Source: a virus. Taken from it: DNA of 23,330 nucleotides. A program made the translations under genes and the position numbers. The DNA lies in IMG/VR virus record IMGVR_UViG_3300032288_006087, positions 1-23,330 of that record. One strand, given 5' to 3'. Below the pieces are notes generated by a model, which was not told where the DNA came from, made no database searches, and was given only the letters and a program-made list of their open reading frames with translations. Shown here piece after piece: positions 1,987 to 22,196 of the stretch (the first letter of the stretch is position 1; every line of letters starts with the position of its first letter).

Positions 1987-2067
1987 CTGTTTAAAATGGA
2001 GACAATCAAGGGGGTTTTTCTCGTTAAATTAATCGATCTAATTGTACCCAATCAACAATAAAAATGT

Positions 2068-2112
2068 TATAATGTTAATAACAATTGCCTCTCGCGGTGC
2101 GTGAACACCCAG
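2068..2112 (+). promoter_or_regulatory. Promoter plus hairpin leader (copy 2) of the solitary repeat locus
   Basis: TATAAT (2068-2073) is followed by TTAATAACAATTGCCTCTCG and hairpin GGTG-CGTGAA-CACC (2096-2109). Three bases later the first solitary repeat begins. Relative to copy 1 (1542-1592), the G-C closing pair replaces A-T, which supports selection for the RNA hairpin. This would be the leader of a stand-alone guide RNA transcript reading plus. Confidence 0.5.
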
Positions 2113-2149
2113 CTTACAATTCTAATTTTTGCCTGTTATGAATTGAAAC
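2113..2149 (+). repeat. Solitary CRISPR repeat, variant A, in crRNA orientation
   Basis: This 37-bp unit is an exact reverse complement of the two most divergent repeats of the main array (5900-5936 and 5971-6007). Read on plus it begins CTTACAATTC and ends GAATTGAAAC, which is the crRNA orientation of the main array. It lies directly downstream of the promoter-hairpin leader and 26 bp before the tRNA-like gene. Confidence 0.85.
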
Positions 2150-2175
2150 ATCTATCTCTGTGTTATAATGTCAGT

Positions 2176-2249
2176 GCGACGGCAGTGAATTGGAGTTCAC
2201 GAGTGGCTCATAACCACTAGATAGGTGGGTTCGACTCCCCCGCGTCGCT
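2176..2249 (+). tRNA. tRNA-like gene with CAU anticodon (Met or Ile2), atypical
   Basis: A cloverleaf folds from 2176: acceptor GCGACGG/GCGTCGC (six pairs plus one G-G mismatch), D arm GTGA..GG..TCAC, anticodon arm AGTGG-CTCATAA-CCACT with anticodon CAT, and T arm GTGGG-TTCGACT-CCCCC. No CCA is encoded. Deviations from the canon are C at position 8, T in place of A21, and a T-C mismatch in the T stem. It could therefore be a degraded or phage-type tRNA, or a tRNA mimic. Its own TATAAT (2164-2169) puts transcription start near base 1. The whole gene sits between two CRISPR repeats. Confidence 0.7.
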
Positions 2250-2257
2250 TGCGATTC

Positions 2258-2294
2258 CTTGAAATTCCTTTTAATGCCTATCAGGAATTGAAAC
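2258..2294 (+). repeat. Solitary CRISPR repeat, canonical variant C, in crRNA orientation
   Basis: This 37-bp unit is the exact reverse complement of the eight identical repeats at 6185-6730. It begins CTTGAAATTC, ends GGAATTGAAAC, and follows the tRNA-like gene by 8 bp. The would-be guide after it starts TTGTAAACGGGGATTCC. No further repeat follows in this locus. Confidence 0.85.
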
Positions 2295-2368
2295 TTGTAA
2301 ACGGGGATTCCATCTTTTAACCCCTTGATCACAAAGTATGATTCTTTCATGTTGTTGGTGTGCGATCG

Positions 2369-5899: not shown

Positions 5900-6730
5900 G
5901 TTTCAATTCATAACAGGCAAAAATTAGAATTGTAAGTTCAGTATCCTTCTGGCTTTTTCTTCTAAGGTGAGTTTCAATTCATAACAGGCAAAAATTAGAA
6001 TTGTAAGCTGAACAGTCTAGTTTTGAAGCAATATCTGGTGATGTTTCAATTTCTGATAGGCATTGAAATCAATTTAAAGAATAATGATGCTGTCGGATGT
6101 TACCAGTTGTTTCGTTTCAATTTCTGATAGGCATTGAAATCAATTTAAAGTCGTAATAGAAAACCCGATGATTCCCATAGCCCCGTTTCAATTCCTGATA
6201 GGCATTAAAAGGAATTTCAAGTGTCTAGCAACTGCGGTACAGACAATAATTGTTTCAATTCCTGATAGGCATTAAAAGGAATTTCAAGCTTACGTTGACT
6301 CCGGGCATACCGTACCCGCGCTTTGGTGTTTCAATTCCTGATAGGCATTAAAAGGAATTTCAAGTCTATACTCCCGTCGCTCCCCTGAATCGACCCCAGT
6401 TTCAATTCCTGATAGGCATTAAAAGGAATTTCAAGCATCTGATAGAGATGATTCATAATAGCAATATAGGCTGTAGGTTTCAATTCCTGATAGGCATTAA
6501 AAGGAATTTCAAGCTGAAGCCACCGTTGAGCCTAATCAATATGGGCTAGTTTCAATTCCTGATAGGCATTAAAAGGAATTTCAAGAACATTCTAAAGCCG
6601 CCATTGAGGGTGCCAAGGCTGTTTCAATTCCTGATAGGCATTAAAAGGAATTTCAAGCATTTCTTCTCGAACTATTTGGGAGACTTTTTGTAGGTTTCAA
6701 TTCCTGATAGGCATTAAAAGGAATTTCAAG
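5900..6730 (-). CRISPR. CRISPR array, 12 repeats of 37 bp and 11 spacers
   Basis: Repeats start at 5900, 5971, 6043, 6114, 6185, 6252, 6328, 6399, 6477, 6549, 6621 and 6694. Spacers are unique, 30-41 bp (mostly 34-36). The last eight repeats are identical (variant C); 6043 and 6114 are variant B, and 5900 and 5971 are variant A. The minus strand is the likely crRNA strand: there the repeat ends ATTGAAAC, the common 3' end of crRNA repeats, and the degenerate repeats then fall at the distal end. The first repeat begins 3 bp after the stop of the Cas12-like gene on the same strand, so the two are probably co-transcribed. By eye no spacer matches elsewhere in the window. Confidence 0.97.
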
Positions 6731-6733
6731 AGC

Positions 6734-8416
6734 TTACCCCATAAGGGTCTTAGCCGTTTTATTCAAGTTTTCTAGGTACTTTTGTTTTATTATAGCACGA
6801 GTTTTGACGGTTTCGGCAATCAAAAATGCGCTAACCCCATTTTTGAACAAATCGTCTGGAATGCTTACTACGTCTTTCTTTTTGGCTTTTTTCTTCCCTT
6901 TCTTCTCCGAACAGCTAGAGGTTGTCGCATTTTTTAAGATTTGATACCAGAAATTATCTACTAACTCAACCCCATGATCCAATGCTAATTGAGCCAACCC
7001 TTTGAGCTTAACATTCTGACCGGAGTTAACATCACGAGCGACGGTATAACCACAATTAGCACAATGATGAATCCGTTGGGATAAGCTTTTTCGCTCTTCA
7101 TGCCCACAATTAGCACAGCGTAAAGTAGTGCCATAAGCAGGAACCCGAATTACCAATTTATCGTGTTCTTTAGCTTTGGTTTCTAATAGTTCAATCGCCT
7201 GACCAATAGCAATATCGCTCCCCGTTCTATTACTTCCCTTCTTGCGTTTTTGATTGTTTTTCTCATAAACAACAGCCCCATTATCTGCCGTCACTGGATT
7301 ACCTTGTTCATCGGTTTTAGTTTTAGCTTTTGCCTTCCGGTAGGCGTTAGCAGGTTTGTAATCTTCAACAAAAATCACGTCAAACCACTTAACTAAATTA
7401 GTTGAATGCCAGTGATTAAACGACCGTCTATGACGGGCTATTTTTTCATGCAGTTTAGCGATCCTTTGATTCAACTTCTCCCAGTTTTTTGTCTTCCCGT
7501 TGTTTATCCTAAACTTACGAGAGAGACGTTTTTGCATTCGTTTTAATCGTCTTAAATTCTGTTTTAAAGGTTGGGCGGCTTTGATTGTATGACCATTATC
7601 AAGTGCCATAACGAACTGATGTCCTGGGTCAATTCCACAAGCTAACCCAGTCTTCTTAAACTTTTTAACCGGAACAGTAGCGGTAAATTGAACATACCAA
7701 CCCGATGCTTTTTTACAGATCTTCATTGGGTTAAAATCAACGCCATACCACCGATTGTCAAACCCTATAACCTCTACATATCCCAGTTTAGGAATATTGA
7801 TGCTACTGCCTTTTACCCCAATATCCTTAGCGTTGTAATGCAATAGCGTCATCACCTTATCCCTAGCAGTCTTAAACCTTGGTCGGGAATGGCGGCCCGC
7901 TAGGAATCCATCCCATGCTTTTGAGAGTTCATGGCTAACCCCCTGAATGAATTTAGCAGGGCAATCCGTAAATTTAACCTTGCGCTCCTGTCCTCTGACC
8001 ATGTAGGTAATAATCCGGTCTTTGTGGTATTGATGACCGAATACCTTTAAGAATCCGTACAGAATAGATTTTTTGGAGTTGAGTGAGTCAATTTGCGGGG
8101 TATCCTTATCGATTGAGACGGGGTGAACCAACCCTTTTGAAGTCTCTTTTCTCTCGGTGCTTAGTTTCCAGTCGGGGATTTCTACTCTGACGAACTGTTT
8201 AAGCTTGCGATCATATCGTTGCAGAGGCATGGCAGGAACGTAAGACTTTGAAATCTTGTCGTAAGGGTTCCAATCATTAAATTCTTCTATTAACCCCAGT
8301 GAGCGATTCCAGACCCACTTACAAACTAACATCCAATCTTCTAGGGTTCGTTCCTGCTCAGGGGTCAGGATAAGCTTAAATTCTTTTGTGCGGACATTTT
8401 CGCTAACATTAGACAT
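6734..8416 (-). CDS. Cas12/TnpB-like RuvC nuclease, CRISPR effector candidate
   Basis: 560 aa. The N-terminus matches the TnpB/Cas12 start (KEFKLILTPEQERTLEDW, then CKWVWNRSL). All three RuvC residues are kept: D263 in GIDPGHQF, E351 in FVEDYKPAN, D462 in ARDVNSGQNV. A zinc ribbon CANC (434-437) and CANC (452-455) lies between motifs II and III. After residue 470 comes an extra C-terminal tail with a Lys-rich stretch. It is longer than usual TnpB (about 400 aa) and in the range of compact Cas12 proteins (V-F, V-M, V-K, V-U). No IS200/IS605 TnpA or ends are seen. With a CRISPR array 3 bp away and a tracrRNA-like RNA upstream, it is best read as an active RNA-guided DNA nuclease of type V, subtype unassigned. 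The minus -10 TATAAT is at 8460-8455. Confidence 0.9.
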   Translation of the reverse strand: MSNVSENVRTKEFKLILTPEQERTLEDWMLVCKWVWNRSLGLIEEFNDWNPYDKISKSYVPAMPLQRYDRKLKQFVRVEIPDWKLSTERKETSKGLVHPVSIDKDTPQIDSLNSKKSILYGFLKVFGHQYHKDRIITYMVRGQERKVKFTDCPAKFIQGVSHELSKAWDGFLAGRHSRPRFKTARDKVMTLLHYNAKDIGVKGSSINIPKLGYVEVIGFDNRWYGVDFNPMKICKKASGWYVQFTATVPVKKFKKTGLACGIDPGHQFVMALDNGHTIKAAQPLKQNLRRLKRMQKRLSRKFRINNGKTKNWEKLNQRIAKLHEKIARHRRSFNHWHSTNLVKWFDVIFVEDYKPANAYRKAKAKTKTDEQGNPVTADNGAVVYEKNNQKRKKGSNRTGSDIAIGQAIELLETKAKEHDKLVIRVPAYGTTLRCANCGHEERKSLSQRIHHCANCGYTVARDVNSGQNVKLKGLAQLALDHGVELVDNFWYQILKNATTSSCSEKKGKKKAKKKDVVSIPDDLFKNGVSAFLIAETVKTRAIIKQKYLENLNKTAKTLMG

Positions 8417-8443: not shown

Positions 8444-8472
8444 TTGACATTTCCATTATATGCAACTATCAT
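8444..8472 (+). promoter_or_regulatory. Promoter of the tracrRNA candidate, overlapping the effector promoter
   Basis: Plus strand: TTGACA (8444-8449), exactly 17 bp, TATCAT (8467-8472), predicting a start near 8479-8480. The minus-strand -10 of the effector gene (8460-8455) lies within it, so the two RNAs come from overlapping divergent promoters and may compete. Confidence 0.65.
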
Positions 8473-8479
8473 TAATTTA

Positions 8480-8630
8480 CCGACGTTTAGATCGGCAAGC
8501 TGAAAAGCTGCCCTTCGAGCCGAAACATTAGGATTAGGCGATGAAGAGGGAATTCTCCAGTCAGATATGACTGGCAATTAATGATAGGCAAAAAATAAAA
8601 TAAGAGGGGGTTTATTCTCCCTCTTATTTT
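8480..8630 (+). ncRNA. Candidate tracrRNA of the type V locus
   Basis: No convincing gene fills 8417-8645. Reading plus from the predicted start, the RNA folds as CCGA/TCGG (8480-8495), an AGCT-GAAA-AGCT stem (8498-8509), CTTC..GCC/GGC..GAAG (8513-8546) and a perfect CCAGTCA-GATA-TGACTGG hairpin (8557-8574). Then comes CAATTAATGATAGGCA (8575-8590). This pairs at 14 of 16 positions with repeat positions 18-33 of the crRNA (TGCCTATCAGGAATTG), with one 2-nt internal mismatch. A terminator hairpin closes it at 8630. Stem-loops followed by a 3' anti-repeat is the layout known for tracrRNAs of V-K and V-F systems. Expression is not shown. Confidence 0.75.
8597..8630. terminator. Bidirectional terminator between tracrRNA and the 8646 gene
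   Basis: AAAATAAGAGGG and CCCTCTTATTTT, 12 perfect pairs with a 10-nt loop. On minus it is followed by ATTTTTT and ends the 8646-9437 gene; on plus the stem itself ends in TTTT and can end the tracrRNA candidate. Confidence 0.8.
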
Positions 8631-10012: not shown

Positions 10013-10160
10013 GTAAACATAATATCACAAAATCAATAAAAGCCAACTAAAAAGCTGGCATAAACGCAAAAGGAATTTTATGTGTGAAAGCCTTTATATT
10101 ATATCCTGCTTATCACGTTTTGTTAGTGTGTTACTATGATAGAAAATACAGGTAAAATCA

Positions 10161-14953: not shown

Positions 14954-15787
14954 TTAAATAATAATAATTTCAGAGTTAAAAGAAACCTGCGTTACTATTT
15001 TATCATAACTTATTCCCTGCCCCACAGGAGAAGTATAACCATAAGCAAAAGAGACCAATGAATCATTGTTTTTGTCAACTGAATACAAAAATAATATATT
15101 AGCTTTATCTTCAGTGTCAATCAAGCTAACACCCGTTGATAACTGAATAGACACCCAAGGGGATAGGGTTGAGACACTGCCTAGAATTTGAATATTTGTA
15201 TGGGGAATCACTGTGGTTGAGTTATCGATAATTCCCGCTAGAATGTCATCTGATTTAACTGTAACAAACCCTTCATTATTAACAATAAGAGATGTTAAAG
15301 TTTGAGAATCATAACCAAACCCAGTAAACCAATCATTATCACTACTAAACCAGCTTAAACACTCCCTAGAGAAGCAATCCAAAGGCGGGGCTGTTGTTAC
15401 ATTATTAGAGTTTTTATCATAATTTGAAACTGATATAACCTCGTTGCCATTGTCCCCAATTCTAAACAAGAATAAAGATTTTGCCTTGGCAATCTTATTT
15501 GATGGAATGGATAGATCGTTGAAACTGACTAATACTGGAGATGATTCCGGCCTGGTGTAGCCGAACGGTATTTTGATTGATTTTGTTCCCAGGGGAGACT
15601 CTAGGAATTCGCTCTCTGAGTTAAGGCATAGCCACTCAGAGTTTGTTGAAGAGTAAAAAAGCGGCGTGATAGTTGATAGCCCCACGCCATAACTCGCCTC
15701 ACTCCCCCATTGTTTCTTGGCTATATACTCCAAAAAGTCAACAGTAGGGAGCAGGGAAATAGAGCTAACATAATCAGGAGATGTCAT
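14954..15787 (-). CDS. Hypothetical structural-type protein, 277 aa
   Basis: ATG 15787 follows AGAGGAGAGCGATCGC and overlaps the preceding gene by 14 bp. It starts MTSPDYVSSISLLPTVDFLE and is rich in Ser, Asn and Asp with repeated beta-type segments (SIKIPFGYTRPESSPVLVSF, ANILFLYSVDKNNDSLVSFA, YGYTSPVGQGISYDKIVTQV). G(Y)T(R/S)P occurs twice, hinting at an internal repeat. No family is recognised. Tight coupling places it with the 61-aa and 733-aa genes in one structural operon. Confidence 0.65.
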   Translation of the reverse strand: MTSPDYVSSISLLPTVDFLEYIAKKQWGSEASYGVGLSTITPLFYSSTNSEWLCLNSESEFLESPLGTKSIKIPFGYTRPESSPVLVSFNDLSIPSNKIAKAKSLFLFRIGDNGNEVISVSNYDKNSNNVTTAPPLDCFSRECLSWFSSDNDWFTGFGYDSQTLTSLIVNNEGFVTVKSDDILAGIIDNSTTVIPHTNIQILGSVSTLSPWVSIQLSTGVSLIDTEDKANILFLYSVDKNNDSLVSFAYGYTSPVGQGISYDKIVTQVSFNSEIIII

Positions 15788-17695: not shown

Positions 17696-18709
17696 TTAAC
17701 TGCGTGGGGGATATCCCTCACCTTCTGCTATACACTCGCCTTTAACGATTTTCATCCAACCATACCGAGCTTTGTTGTTGTCGGCTCCGCCTGCTTCTTT
17801 CCACTGATAAAGTCCGGTGGGGAGATGATCATAACGGATTTTAACAGTGTGTTTTTTGGAGCGATGCGCTCTTTCTTGTTCCTCGTCACAGGTTGGCTTG
17901 CCATAGTCAGCTTGAGTGTAATCTGCTTTTCCGTTAATTACGGGACAAAGATAAGCGTTAATTCCTTTACTTCGATAAGAAACTAACTCAATATATTTGA
18001 ATTCTGATTCGGATTTAGCAGGGGGATTATGGCGAAAATGATTGACTAAATCAATCAGTATATCGACTGACTTACCTTTCATCCCTTCATAATTTAATCG
18101 GTCAAAAATTTCTGTTTCATCCATTTCACCGGATGCTAAAATTTTTGAGGCTTCAAGAGGAATGCGCTCGTCCCAGTAGCGATTTACTTGATCCTCCCCA
18201 GATAGCTTAATCGCATCGCCCATAGTGGGAGTGTAATTGATAGGTTGTACCTGTTGATGCTGTGCTTTAATTTTGTCTTCTAGGAAGTTATCAATATCTT
18301 CATTTGAAATATGGTCAAAACCACACTGACCATAGTAGTTTTTTTGAACCGATACCGACTCCTCATATTTTTCAAGCTCGGTGATCGCTTGATTGTAAAC
18401 CTGCTCATTAGGAGCTATCCAGGCTTTCTTAATGGAATCCCATTTACATCCCCAACTCTTGAGTTGATCTTTGATGTGAAATGTATTTTTGCTGACTATT
18501 TCTAAACTCATCGGTTTAACACCCCAAATTGTTAACTGTTTTGGAGCCTCCGGTTTCCGGGCTTCGAGGGCTTCCACTTTCCCTTCTAAAACAGTCAACT
18601 CAAAACCCCACTTCCGAACAAGACTGCGGACGCGGGGAAATTTAGCGATTAAGTTGTTCAATTGTTGAATTCTGTTTTTGAGTTGTGCAACTGTCAGAAA
18701 GGATTTCAT
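17696..18709 (-). CDS. Hypothetical protein, 337 aa, N-terminal coiled coil and WD-motif domain
   Basis: Start at ATG 18709, preceded by GAGGGC at 5 nt; an in-frame ATG 6 codons earlier lacks a site. Residues 1-60 are helical (LTVAQLKNRIQQLNNLIAKF). Around 75-115 the segment FHIKDQLKSWGCKWDSIKKA followed by WIAP fits the pattern K..LK..G..WD...K.W..P seen in DUF5710-like domains. The C-terminal half (SESEFKYIELVSYRSKGINA, HTVKIRYDHLPTGLYQWKEA) is beta-rich. Function unknown; such domains are frequent in proteins of plasmids and phages that act on DNA. It has a structured leader at 18710-18835. Confidence 0.6.
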   Translation of the reverse strand: MKSFLTVAQLKNRIQQLNNLIAKFPRVRSLVRKWGFELTVLEGKVEALEARKPEAPKQLTIWGVKPMSLEIVSKNTFHIKDQLKSWGCKWDSIKKAWIAPNEQVYNQAITELEKYEESVSVQKNYYGQCGFDHISNEDIDNFLEDKIKAQHQQVQPINYTPTMGDAIKLSGEDQVNRYWDERIPLEASKILASGEMDETEIFDRLNYEGMKGKSVDILIDLVNHFRHNPPAKSESEFKYIELVSYRSKGINAYLCPVINGKADYTQADYGKPTCDEEQERAHRSKKHTVKIRYDHLPTGLYQWKEAGGADNNKARYGWMKIVKGECIAEGEGYPPRS

Positions 18710-18901: not shown

Positions 18902-19060
18902 ATGTCAAGAGGAAAATGGAAAAAAGATCTAAAATACCAGAAGAAGCTACAGGTATGGCTTTCGGAAATTGAAAGGGAGAGGTTAGAGGCGATCGCATCC
19001 TCTCTCAACCTCTCCCTATCTGAGTTAATCAGGTATTGGATTAATAATGCTAAAATTTAA
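18902..19060 (+). CDS. Ribbon-helix-helix DNA-binding protein, 52 aa
   Basis: MSRGKWKKDLKYQKKLQVWL continues SEIERERLEAIASSLNLSLS and ELIRYWINNAKI. A basic N-terminus, a short strand (KLQVWLS), a helix (ERERLEAIAS) and a second helix starting with SLSELIRYWI fit the CopG-like RHH fold. The likely role is an autoregulated repressor; the inverted repeat at 18858 is a candidate site. No clear ribosome binding site is seen. Its last codons overlap the start of the interrupted MLK module and the 38-bp palindrome at 19058. Its transcript would read on into the solitary repeat at 19099. Confidence 0.7.
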   Translation: MSRGKWKKDLKYQKKLQVWLSEIERERLEAIASSLNLSLSELIRYWINNAKI

Positions 19061-19095
19061 TCAATCAATAGAGTTGCAACTCTATTGATTGATTA
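19058..19095. repeat. Perfect 38-bp palindrome with interrupted MLK-module copy
   Basis: The arms read TAATCAATCAATAGAGTTG and CAACTCTATTGATTGATTA with no spacer. The frame MLKFNQSIELQLY-stop (19047-19088) runs through it and matches the 27-aa frame at 16000, with TGA where the other copy has TGG. No T-run follows, so it is not a typical terminator. It may be a protein-binding site, a processing hairpin or a recombination site. Confidence 0.75.
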
Positions 19096-19098
19096 GTG

Positions 19099-19135
19099 AT
19101 TTCAATCCCAATTTTTGCCTATCAGGAATTAAAAC
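19099..19135 (+). repeat. Solitary degenerate CRISPR repeat at the end of the ATPase gene
   Basis: On plus the 3' half, GCCTATCAGGAATTAAAAC, matches the canonical crRNA repeat with one change; the 5' half (ATTTCAATCCCAATTTTT) is divergent. It overlaps the last 7 bp of the minus-strand gene at 19129. The bases after it, which would be a guide (TGGACTGGCAAAAAATTCAC), are antisense to the 3' end of that gene. Confidence 0.65.
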
Positions 19136-21039
19136 TGGACTGGCAAAAAATTCACGCTCCGAAACCCGTTAACTTCCTTGATTAGCTTCTGTCCAAAACC
19201 AAATTCTTGAAGCTCGTCGAAAACCTGCTCTGTTGTTTCTGCATTCAGTCCGTATTGAGTGCGGAGTGATGATTTGCGATAACAATCACGGGCGGGAATT
19301 GGCTCACCATTGAACACTTCCAACAGAAAATCATAAACAGCTTGTGCTACCTCCGATGGGATTTTTTCGGGTAGTTGCTTCTGGTTTGTTCCATTCCAAG
19401 GGGATTTATACTTGGCTTGCAACTCTGACTCAAGACTTAACCGCTTCTGTTCCTCCCATCCCTTTGTGATATAAAAAGCAATTTTTACTTCAACATTTTC
19501 GATGGATTCAAGATGTTTTTTGATGTGATGCTCCCAGTCGCCTTTGTTGTTCCAGCGTCTCCACAAATCCTTAGATTGTCCAATATAAAGAGGGTTTTGA
19601 TACCCTTCTACAAACACAGCGTAAACCCCGGCTTCATGCTGTGGCAACCATTGTAATCCGTCGGGATAATCAACAGATTGCCACGTCATCGGGTTAAGAG
19701 GATCTATTGCTTCTAATACTTCTGGGATATTAGCTTTTTTGAGATCAATCTCATGTTTTCGTGGAACTACATTCTCGTTTTTAACCCATCTTAGATCGCT
19801 TAGTAAACTCAATGATACTCCCCCTAACGTACAAAATAATAACTGCTTGCTTTCTGCAAGAGATATGGCTTTTAGTTTTTTGTATTCAGAGATCAATTTT
19901 TCTCTAATTCCCGTTCCGGGTTTAACGATGTACTGATTATTTAGAACACTGTCAACCGAATCAAATCCACCTGATTCACCCCTCTCTGTATAAGACTTGA
20001 AGCCAAGTCCCATTAGAATTAAGCAATTTCTAATATCAGCACCCTCTAATCCTAATTGTTTTAAATTAAAGGAATGGGCAGAAACATACAGAGTGACATT
20101 GAATTCACGTCCCACAGTAATCAAAAATGCGATATTAGATATAAACTCTTTAAGCGTTTTACCCCCTACAGCACTAATACTGGTAAAAGTTGCTGTATAA
20201 TCATCAAAAATCAAGCGGACTGGCTTATTTTCAAAGTCTCTATCTTCTTCGGGGGTTTGGCATCTTTCCTTTAGAATCTCACAGACTTTAGAAACTTTTT
20301 CTATCAACTCATCGATTTCAGTATTGACAACAGTTAAAACCCCTTTTATAGATCCTAACCCCAACCAATTATCTCGTTTTTGACCAATTATAAAAAACTG
20401 AGTTTCAGGAGTATTGGCAACAGTTGCCCATAGCCATGCAAGGGTTAACGTTGTTTTTCCAGTTCCGGGTTGAGAACAAAGCAGTATAGAGGTTCTACAG
20501 ATAGCCAAGTCCTGTATTATTTTGTCAATTTTCAGGTCGTTACTTTCCAATTCTTTTACTGTGTCAACAAGGGAATCTTGGAGAAGGATCTGTGGAGTTA
20601 AAGAAACTTCTTCTCTCTCTAATACCGCAAGCTGACCGCGTGGCTGTTCTGTTTCATATTCTTCCGACGGTGGGAGTCTTGGGTTTTGGGGTTGAGGATA
20701 GGGGTGTTGTTGACGCGCGATCGCCTGTTGGCTTTCTGCAAAATAAACAGCATCTCTAAGTTTGTCTAACTCGCTTTCCATTCCCAGCCGTCGCAGGAAT
20801 ATCGCCTCTGTTTGCTCCTCTAATTTGGCTTGCAACTTGGAGGATTTCTCGGACTGGGAAGACATCACCCATCCGGCAACAGATAACGCGGCTCCGGTGG
20901 CGGTTCCTGTGATCGCCCACTGGGGAGATTTATTGATAGCAATTGGGGAAAACATAGATAGCCCACACCCGGCAATTGTTAACCCTAATGCCCACGCTGA
21001 AAGGTGAGGGTTTTTGAGATGATCGGGGATATGACTCAC
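19129..21039 (-). CDS. Membrane-anchored P-loop ATPase fused to a GIY-YIG nuclease domain
   Basis: 636 aa from GTG 21039, chosen because GGAGGAATC precedes it and the GTG overlaps the upstream stop (GTGA). Two N-terminal membrane helices (ALGLTIAGCGLSMFSPIAI and WAITGTATGAALSVAGWVM) are followed by a helical linker. A P-loop domain has Walker A SQPGTGKTT (about 189-197) and Walker B RLIFDDY (about 275-281). A GIY-YIG domain (about 480-560) has GVYAVF, PLYIGQSKDLWRRW and a downstream LESELQAKYKSPWN. The tail (FLLEVFNGEPIPARDC onward) looks like a winged helix. A DNA-translocating or coupling role at the membrane is likely (conjugation, packaging or entry), but this exact fusion is not one I recognise. 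Confidence 0.8.
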   Translation of the reverse strand: MSHIPDHLKNPHLSAWALGLTIAGCGLSMFSPIAINKSPQWAITGTATGAALSVAGWVMSSQSEKSSKLQAKLEEQTEAIFLRRLGMESELDKLRDAVYFAESQQAIARQQHPYPQPQNPRLPPSEEYETEQPRGQLAVLEREEVSLTPQILLQDSLVDTVKELESNDLKIDKIIQDLAICRTSILLCSQPGTGKTTLTLAWLWATVANTPETQFFIIGQKRDNWLGLGSIKGVLTVVNTEIDELIEKVSKVCEILKERCQTPEEDRDFENKPVRLIFDDYTATFTSISAVGGKTLKEFISNIAFLITVGREFNVTLYVSAHSFNLKQLGLEGADIRNCLILMGLGFKSYTERGESGGFDSVDSVLNNQYIVKPGTGIREKLISEYKKLKAISLAESKQLLFCTLGGVSLSLLSDLRWVKNENVVPRKHEIDLKKANIPEVLEAIDPLNPMTWQSVDYPDGLQWLPQHEAGVYAVFVEGYQNPLYIGQSKDLWRRWNNKGDWEHHIKKHLESIENVEVKIAFYITKGWEEQKRLSLESELQAKYKSPWNGTNQKQLPEKIPSEVAQAVYDFLLEVFNGEPIPARDCYRKSSLRTQYGLNAETTEQVFDELQEFGFGQKLIKEVNGFRSVNFLPVQF

Positions 21040-21389
21040 GATTCCTCCTGTTGTGGAGGTAGGGAGAAAAAGACCCAAGATGAAATAGCGACAGTTAGCA
21101 ACAGACACCACAGAAGCAACCTAAGAGCTATCCAAGCTTGACCCAATCCCAGGGCGTAGAAGATGCCAATTAATAATGCTACGACTCCAAATATTATCTC
21201 GGCTGTGTCAAAATTACCTTGAGATTCAGAGAAGAGATAGAGGGCGATCGCTCCAACAATTCCCCCTAGATAAAGGCAAATTAAAAGCACTCTAATCTCA
21301 GGGAGAATCAAGGCAAAATGAGATAGCAAAAAGGAACAAGATAAACCTGTTCCAAAGATTGAAAACTTTTTGACTTTCCATAGTTTCAT
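21036..21389 (-). CDS. Small polytopic membrane protein, 117 aa
   Basis: Four hydrophobic segments can be seen: FGTGLSCSFLLSHFALIL, VLLICLYLGGIVGAIALYLF, IIFGVVALLIGIFYALGLG and LLLWCLLLTVAISSWVFF. The N-terminus MKLWKVKKF is positive, as expected for the cytoplasmic side. The stop overlaps the GTG start of the ATPase gene, so the pair is translationally coupled and the protein may be a membrane partner of that ATPase. No family recognised. A hairpin sits just upstream of its start. Confidence 0.65.
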   Translation of the reverse strand: MKLWKVKKFSIFGTGLSCSFLLSHFALILPEIRVLLICLYLGGIVGAIALYLFSESQGNFDTAEIIFGVVALLIGIFYALGLGQAWIALRLLLWCLLLTVAISSWVFFSLPPQQEES

Positions 21390-21940: not shown

Positions 21941-22196
21941 TTCTTTTTCTCCATTCAATAATTAGCTGTTCTTTGCACCCTTCGCCACCTTTGTTTTTCA
22001 GGCATTTTTCATAACCTGAAAGGTTGGCTACGGCTACAAACTTTTGAAACTCCTCAGTTGGTTTATTTGTCAATCTGACAACTTCAAAAGCTATCAAACC
22101 AACTAAAACCAAAGATAACAACCCCATTGACCAATTGAATACCATCACGCCTGTTATCTGGGGGGAGGTCTGGGTTTCAGATTGTTGTAAATACAT
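21930..22196 (-). CDS. Single-pass membrane protein, 88 aa
   Basis: MYLQQSETQTSPQITG is followed by one hydrophobic helix (VFNWSMGLLSLVLVGLIAFE) and a soluble C-terminal part with two cysteines (YEKCLKNKGGEGCKEQ) and a basic end. The Cys pair could form a disulphide if the C-terminus lies outside the cytoplasm. ATG 22196 directly follows the rhomboid stop (TAAATG), and its end overlaps the 21425-21940 gene. No family is recognised. It may be a rhomboid substrate or partner, by proximity only. Confidence 0.65.
   Translation of the reverse strand: MYLQQSETQTSPQITGVMVFNWSMGLLSLVLVGLIAFEVVRLTNKPTEEFQKFVAVANLSGYEKCLKNKGGEGCKEQLIIEWRKRNGN

Follow-up and report, generated by a model that had tools for sequence, protein, structure and literature searches.

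Engineered polycistronic tRNA-gRNA arrays are used in plant editing, where tRNA processing frees the guides. Among viral elements, Racrs, or viral solitary repeat units, are single intergenic phage repeats that lie outside an array behind a promoter and have no cas genes associated with them (PMC10651486; reviewed in PMC11656645). A previous study on Aphanizomenon phage CL131 reported a minimal locus with a type V-U2 (C2c8) effector and no tracrRNA (PMC6293099), and a review table appears to give no tracrRNA for C2c8 (PMC11641405). Viral CRISPR mini-arrays, which are short repeat-spacer units, have been implicated in interviral conflict (PMC6858448). In CAST V-K, where Cas12k is found with TnsB, TnsC and TniQ, a delocalised crRNA is encoded by an altered, repeat-like unit outside the array, and its spacer matches a nearby tRNA gene (PMC11656645). 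We describe herein a phage locus in which two solitary repeats flank a tRNA-CAU-like gene.

The window (the whole stretch of DNA analysed, a 23,330-base virus record) is a contig of a cyanobacterial virus that has a small CRISPR system of its own; its closest named relative is Planktothrix phage PaV-LD. The effector (6734-8416, minus strand, 560 aa) is a type V-U2 protein of the C2c8/Cas12u2 kind (PADLOC Cas12u2, E=4.8e-109) with intact RuvC motifs (GIDPG, VEDYKP and RDVNSG) and two CxxCG motifs of a zinc ribbon, and the three RuvC motifs were present in all 17 relatives checked. The main array (5900-6730, minus strand) starts 3 bp past the end of the cas12u2 gene and contains 12 repeats: eight of variant C, two of B and two of A. 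In the V-U2 relatives L009-L027, the array repeats are of a different type, and no tRNA was found in the stretches of these relatives that were examined. A Cas12u2 search of genome contigs gave no cyanobacterial match. On a further virus contig (L040/L229, about 17.3-18.1 kb), a 12-repeat array has a C-like repeat, and a V-U2 effector was not found there.

The two solitary repeats lie 3.6-6 kb from cas12u2 and its cognate array. Repeat A (2113-2149, plus strand) is identical to the array repeats at 5900-5936 and 5971-6007 (minus strand), and its identity with the second of these extends by 3 nt to a run of 40 nt (2110-2149 against 5971-6010). Repeat C (2258-2294, plus strand) is identical to all eight array C repeats. 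Solitary and array copies alike run as ...GAATTGAAAC, with the same orientation towards the DNA that follows. Since each solitary repeat matches an array variant exactly, chance is excluded as their source; the sequence-only reading, which had placed them in crRNA orientation and 108 bp apart (2150-2257), was right on each point. The would-be spacer of repeat A (2150-2175, plus strand) consists of 11 unique nt and a promoter box of the tRNA, TGTTATAATGT (2161-2171), and that of repeat C (2295-2330, plus strand) is 36 nt long. No credible target was found for either; for the latter, the matches were 17-19 nt only, a length expected by chance.

Between the repeats, 8 nt upstream of repeat C, lies the tRNA-CAU-like gene (2176-2249, plus strand). 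It is the single tRNA call of ARAGORN in the whole window (anticodon CAT), as the earlier proposal of a cloverleaf at this place would have it, and because, on copies of the window generated by a first-order Markov model, ARAGORN made one false call in 7 Mb, such a cloverleaf is very unlikely to arise by chance. The Rfam covariance models did not bear out this call: RF00005 had no match in the window (E<=0.001) or at the tRNA place in the relative L041 (E<=0.1), and the top Rfam match was tRNA-Sec at 28.4 bits against a cut-off of 47. The several non-canonical positions noticed earlier are indeed there, namely a G7/G66 mismatch in the acceptor stem, an unpaired U (a bulge or mismatch) in the T stem, U73, and a 3' end at which CCA is not encoded. 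The middle and 3' part resemble phage tRNA-Met genes. A tRNA so degenerate may escape recognition by RNase Z.

Directly 5' of the tRNA, the TGTTATAATGT box at 2161-2171 (TATAAT at 2164) would set the start of a transcript at about the first tRNA base. When a transcript from 2176 is folded, the prediction retains both the cloverleaf and the repeat hairpin; when the transcript begins at the upstream promoter, the cloverleaf is disrupted in the prediction. No terminator was found 3' of repeat C. Both TATAAT boxes, at 2068 and 2164, were read from the sequence in their extended -10 form, and a two-hexamer promoter scan lists neither. Promoter-like sequence thus read lies at most 250 bp from each of the repeats at 2113 and 2258, outside the array.

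The element ahead of repeat A (2065-2111, plus strand) comprises a phage promoter (extended -10, TGTTATAAT) and a truncated 5'-UTR hairpin element. The TATAAT (2068-2073) and the inner hairpin of the leader proposed earlier are present; that it is dedicated to this locus does not hold, as the element is reused by phages. Further copies occur at 1543-1600 of the window, in PaV-LD (72,09x) and in L163, L164, L165 and L166, and these other copies precede the ATG of protein genes (small or antirepressor-like ORFs). Behind the 1543-1600 copy is a very short ORF (1618-1698), the start of which resembles PaV-LD ORF099; it is probably truncated. The element follows the pattern GCCYYT-CGC-GGTG...CACC-C-ARRGGC, with the outer stem, GCCYYT...ARRGGC, full or nearly full in the other copies. 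The copy at 2065 lacks the 3' half of that stem, ends at CACCCAG, and gives way to repeat A at the break, so it is a fused fragment rather than a dedicated leader.

The only close relative found, L041 (9,462 bp), is 97% identical to the window over 1616-1984. It has the tRNA, repeat C and the 49 nt 3' of it, would-be spacer included, all identical to the window, and lacks a segment of 96 bp that comprises the leader element and repeat A. In the window this segment is bounded by two 11-bp copies of TGTTATAATGT (2065-2075 and 2161-2171), as expected if it was gained in the window or lost in L041 by recombination. Capture of the tRNA between repeats by recombination had been suggested earlier; the direct repeats agree with recombination at this place, and what they flank is the leader and repeat A. 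From the tRNA box onward (2161-2343, 183 nt), including the 25 nt of 2161-2185, there are no differences from L041; the neighbouring sequence has 11 in 369 nt, from which about 5.5 would be expected in the block (p about 0.004, a Poisson estimate). This hints at constraint on the block, which could also be a recent recombination tract; because the 102 nt of 1883-1984 are likewise identical, the case for constraint is not conclusive.

The notion of a fixed three-part machine enclosing the tRNA is weakened by L041, which has no leader and no repeat A, and the same comparison shows that a repeat-tRNA-repeat unit is not a necessary one. With the pattern used, no second repeat-CAU tRNA-repeat was present in 2.9 million viral contigs. 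For a tRNA followed by a repeat, the window and L041, both metagenomic, were the only two loci among the matches listed and examined; the search among relatives that had been proposed thus recovered the tRNA with repeat C and not the complete arrangement. A scan for a repeat next to a CAU tRNA gave three matches of one tRNA-cluster phage type, with ATTGAAAC by chance, and L227/L228 proved to be unrelated phage tRNAs; all were set aside.

Upstream of cas12u2 and on the opposite strand, a divergent noncoding RNA (8479-8630, or 8444-8630 at its widest, plus strand) contains an anti-repeat (8574-8600) and ends in a Rho-independent terminator. The block of about 150 nt, with a promoter-like start, a hairpin and the terminator, is kept in 10 relatives including PaV-LD, where it is retained though just 23 residues of cas12u2 are still detectable. 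Seven predicted pairs, located in the hairpin, the terminator hairpin and one other stem, are changed on both sides. The PaV-LD locus (NC_016564, about 68,800-69,180) is a V-U2 relic that has retained the tracr-like RNA together with two repeats. In the window, the anti-repeat pairs with repeats A, B and C at about -19 to -21 kcal/mol (-20.9 for repeat A and -19.7 for repeat C, the latter equalled by 3 of 1000 shuffled versions) and with the repeats of other phages at -7 to -16. The copies in other phages favour their own repeats; that is, the anti-repeat tracks the local repeat type. This RNA is probably the tracrRNA of the phage V-U2 systems, and the matched anti-repeat suggests that this V-U2 lineage uses one. 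As repeats A and C retain the core that pairs with it, they should, by these pairing predictions, be usable as crRNAs.

Solitary repeats are not peculiar to this locus. The window has a third, diverged one (19099-19135, plus strand) at the 3' end of ORF 19129-21111; directly before it, at 19058-19095, is a perfect palindrome of 19+19 bp. G010 (15579-15612) and G016 (18649-18682) have a solitary C-type repeat at a common site directly 3' of a stop codon, and the array of these phages is of a different repeat type. Solitary C-type repeats occur also in G026 (10114-10150) and G027 (6875-6911 and 21975-22011), one of them intergenic and common to both and the other a second repeat of G027; no V-U2 was present in the DNA recovered from these two. 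The solitary repeats of these four phages all adjoin gene ends. No tRNA was called at the other solitary-repeat loci examined. Because they recur at loci without a tRNA call, solitary repeats are a recurrent feature of this phage group, independent of the tRNA.

We tentatively favor, as a reading somewhat short of even odds, that the tRNA-CAU-like gene is flanked by two solitary repeat units belonging to the V-U2 system that this phage encodes, and that the tRNA and the downstream repeat are transcribed together. It draws on the exact identity to the array, the block shared with L041, the direct repeats, the anti-repeat pairing, the fold from 2176, and the recurrence of solitary repeats. Counting against it are the lack of targets found for both would-be spacers, the small number of tRNA loci (two), the chance that the identical block is a recombination tract, the absence of a terminator in the search 3' of repeat C, the degenerate tRNA, and the cloverleaf disrupted in the fold from the upstream promoter. 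The downstream unit (the tRNA, 8 nt, repeat C and 36 nt) is one block common to L041. Transcription from the extended -10 box would start at the first tRNA base (2176) and continue through repeat C; RNase Z processing of the tRNA 3' end would then free a crRNA-like RNA, which, once paired with the tracrRNA of the phage, would load Cas12u2 from outside the array. In the upstream unit, a borrowed phage promoter would drive a second crRNA-like RNA; this unit may be an add-on or the survivor of recombination between the TGTTATAATGT boxes. The tRNA is best read as a neighbor and a possible processing site, rather than as the part around which a device is built. The sequence-only reading had also offered a guide precursor matured by RNase P/Z; this may hold, mainly for the downstream repeat common to L041. 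A stronger form, that the locus is a natural tRNA-crRNA tandem in which cleavage at the tRNA 3' end frees a guide made outside the array, or a decoy, for the phage's own tracrRNA-dependent V-U2 nuclease, we consider distinctly unlikely.

The alternative that survives best, though it is doubtful, is that the locus is a passive relic, with the repeats being functionless by-products of recombination among array copies, promoter elements and the tRNA gene. The chimeric junction between the truncated UTR element and repeat A, the homology to the array copy at 5971-6010, which runs 3 nt past the repeat, the 11-bp direct repeats, the patchwork surroundings with a shortened antirepressor-like ORF, and the lack of targets found for the would-be spacers all suit such an origin. 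However, both repeats are exact and their tracr-pairing cores are intact, L041 shows no change in repeat C or the next 49 nt, and several relatives have solitary repeats, some at common sites.

It is unlikely that the locus is an RNA anti-CRISPR decoy of the Racr type, in which transcribed solitary repeats would tie up Cas12u2 or tracrRNA belonging to rival phages or to a system of the host. A promoter followed by a solitary repeat unit is known Racr anatomy (PMC10651486), and the locus could, by analogy, act like a Racr despite the nearby cas genes. The solitary C-type repeats of G026, G027 and G010/G016 pair better with the window-type than with the L-type anti-repeat, the preference being weak in G010 (-15.1 vs -13.5). 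One V-U2 array spacer (L012, at 12109) has a 35/35 match in the sister phage G010 (contig about 62835-62869, L202:2835-2869; protospacer 5' flank ...CGCAAAGTT), which makes phage-phage targeting within this group plausible. Against this, the repeats in the window are those of the phage's own array, so that a decoy made from them would act on the system of the phage itself, and the 19-nt repeat core had no cyanobacterial match among 84,980 species genomes.

A dedicated dual guide precursor, with RNase P ending a first guide, RNase Z starting a second, and the tRNA kept for that purpose, would fit the spacing, and engineered tRNA-gRNA arrays function in this way; it is nonetheless improbable, as the first guide is missing in L041, the tRNA 5' end has a promoter box of its own, the arrangement was single among the viral contigs searched with the pattern used, and the examined tRNA-repeat matches among those listed had no further repeat of such a kind. 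Homing on, or immunity at, a tRNA gene by a delocalised guide like that of V-K transposons is extremely improbable: a guide-like segment does adjoin the tRNA, and 2149-2166 is partly complementary to 2210-2227, but this complementarity was reached in 42 of 500 shuffles and 45 of 500 random 27-mers and is thus at chance level, the effector is a V-U2 protein with RuvC motifs and not Cas12k, and the 20 ORFs scanned in the window, itself a fragment, had no Pfam match to TnsB, TnsC or TniQ.

Compared with the systems described, the locus thus resembles CAST V-K in having a repeat unit outside the array near a tRNA, and differs in its effector, in its exact rather than altered repeats, in having no transposition genes found, and in having no spacer that matches its own tRNA gene. 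With the viral mini-arrays, it has in common short repeat-spacer units and, within the phage group, a spacer against a sister phage; unlike them, it has a tRNA between its repeats, and no target was found for the solitary units. CRISPR loci of the CL131 kind come closer, with the same effector family, a minimal locus, a PaV-LD-related lineage and a tRNA-Met; in CL131, however, the tRNA-Met lies elsewhere and overlaps the 3' end of a CDS, and no tracrRNA was reported, whereas the window has a conserved noncoding RNA with an anti-repeat. Racrs share the single intergenic repeats behind a promoter outside the array, but the phage of the window has a cognate effector and array, and one of its units is joined to a tRNA gene. 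Cyanophages of this group occur with and without V-U2, with more than one type of solitary repeat and with one spacer that matches a sister phage; even if the proposed processing is untrue, they form a tractable setting for asking whether such repeats are guides, decoys or relics. If it is true, a virus would have a route to make guides outside its array. As in the engineered tRNA-gRNA arrays, a tRNA is followed here by a guide precursor; there the arrangement was designed, whereas here it is natural and the processing is a proposal. Should the tRNA-repeat unit be processed in the manner proposed, it would represent a natural counterpart of those engineered arrays.
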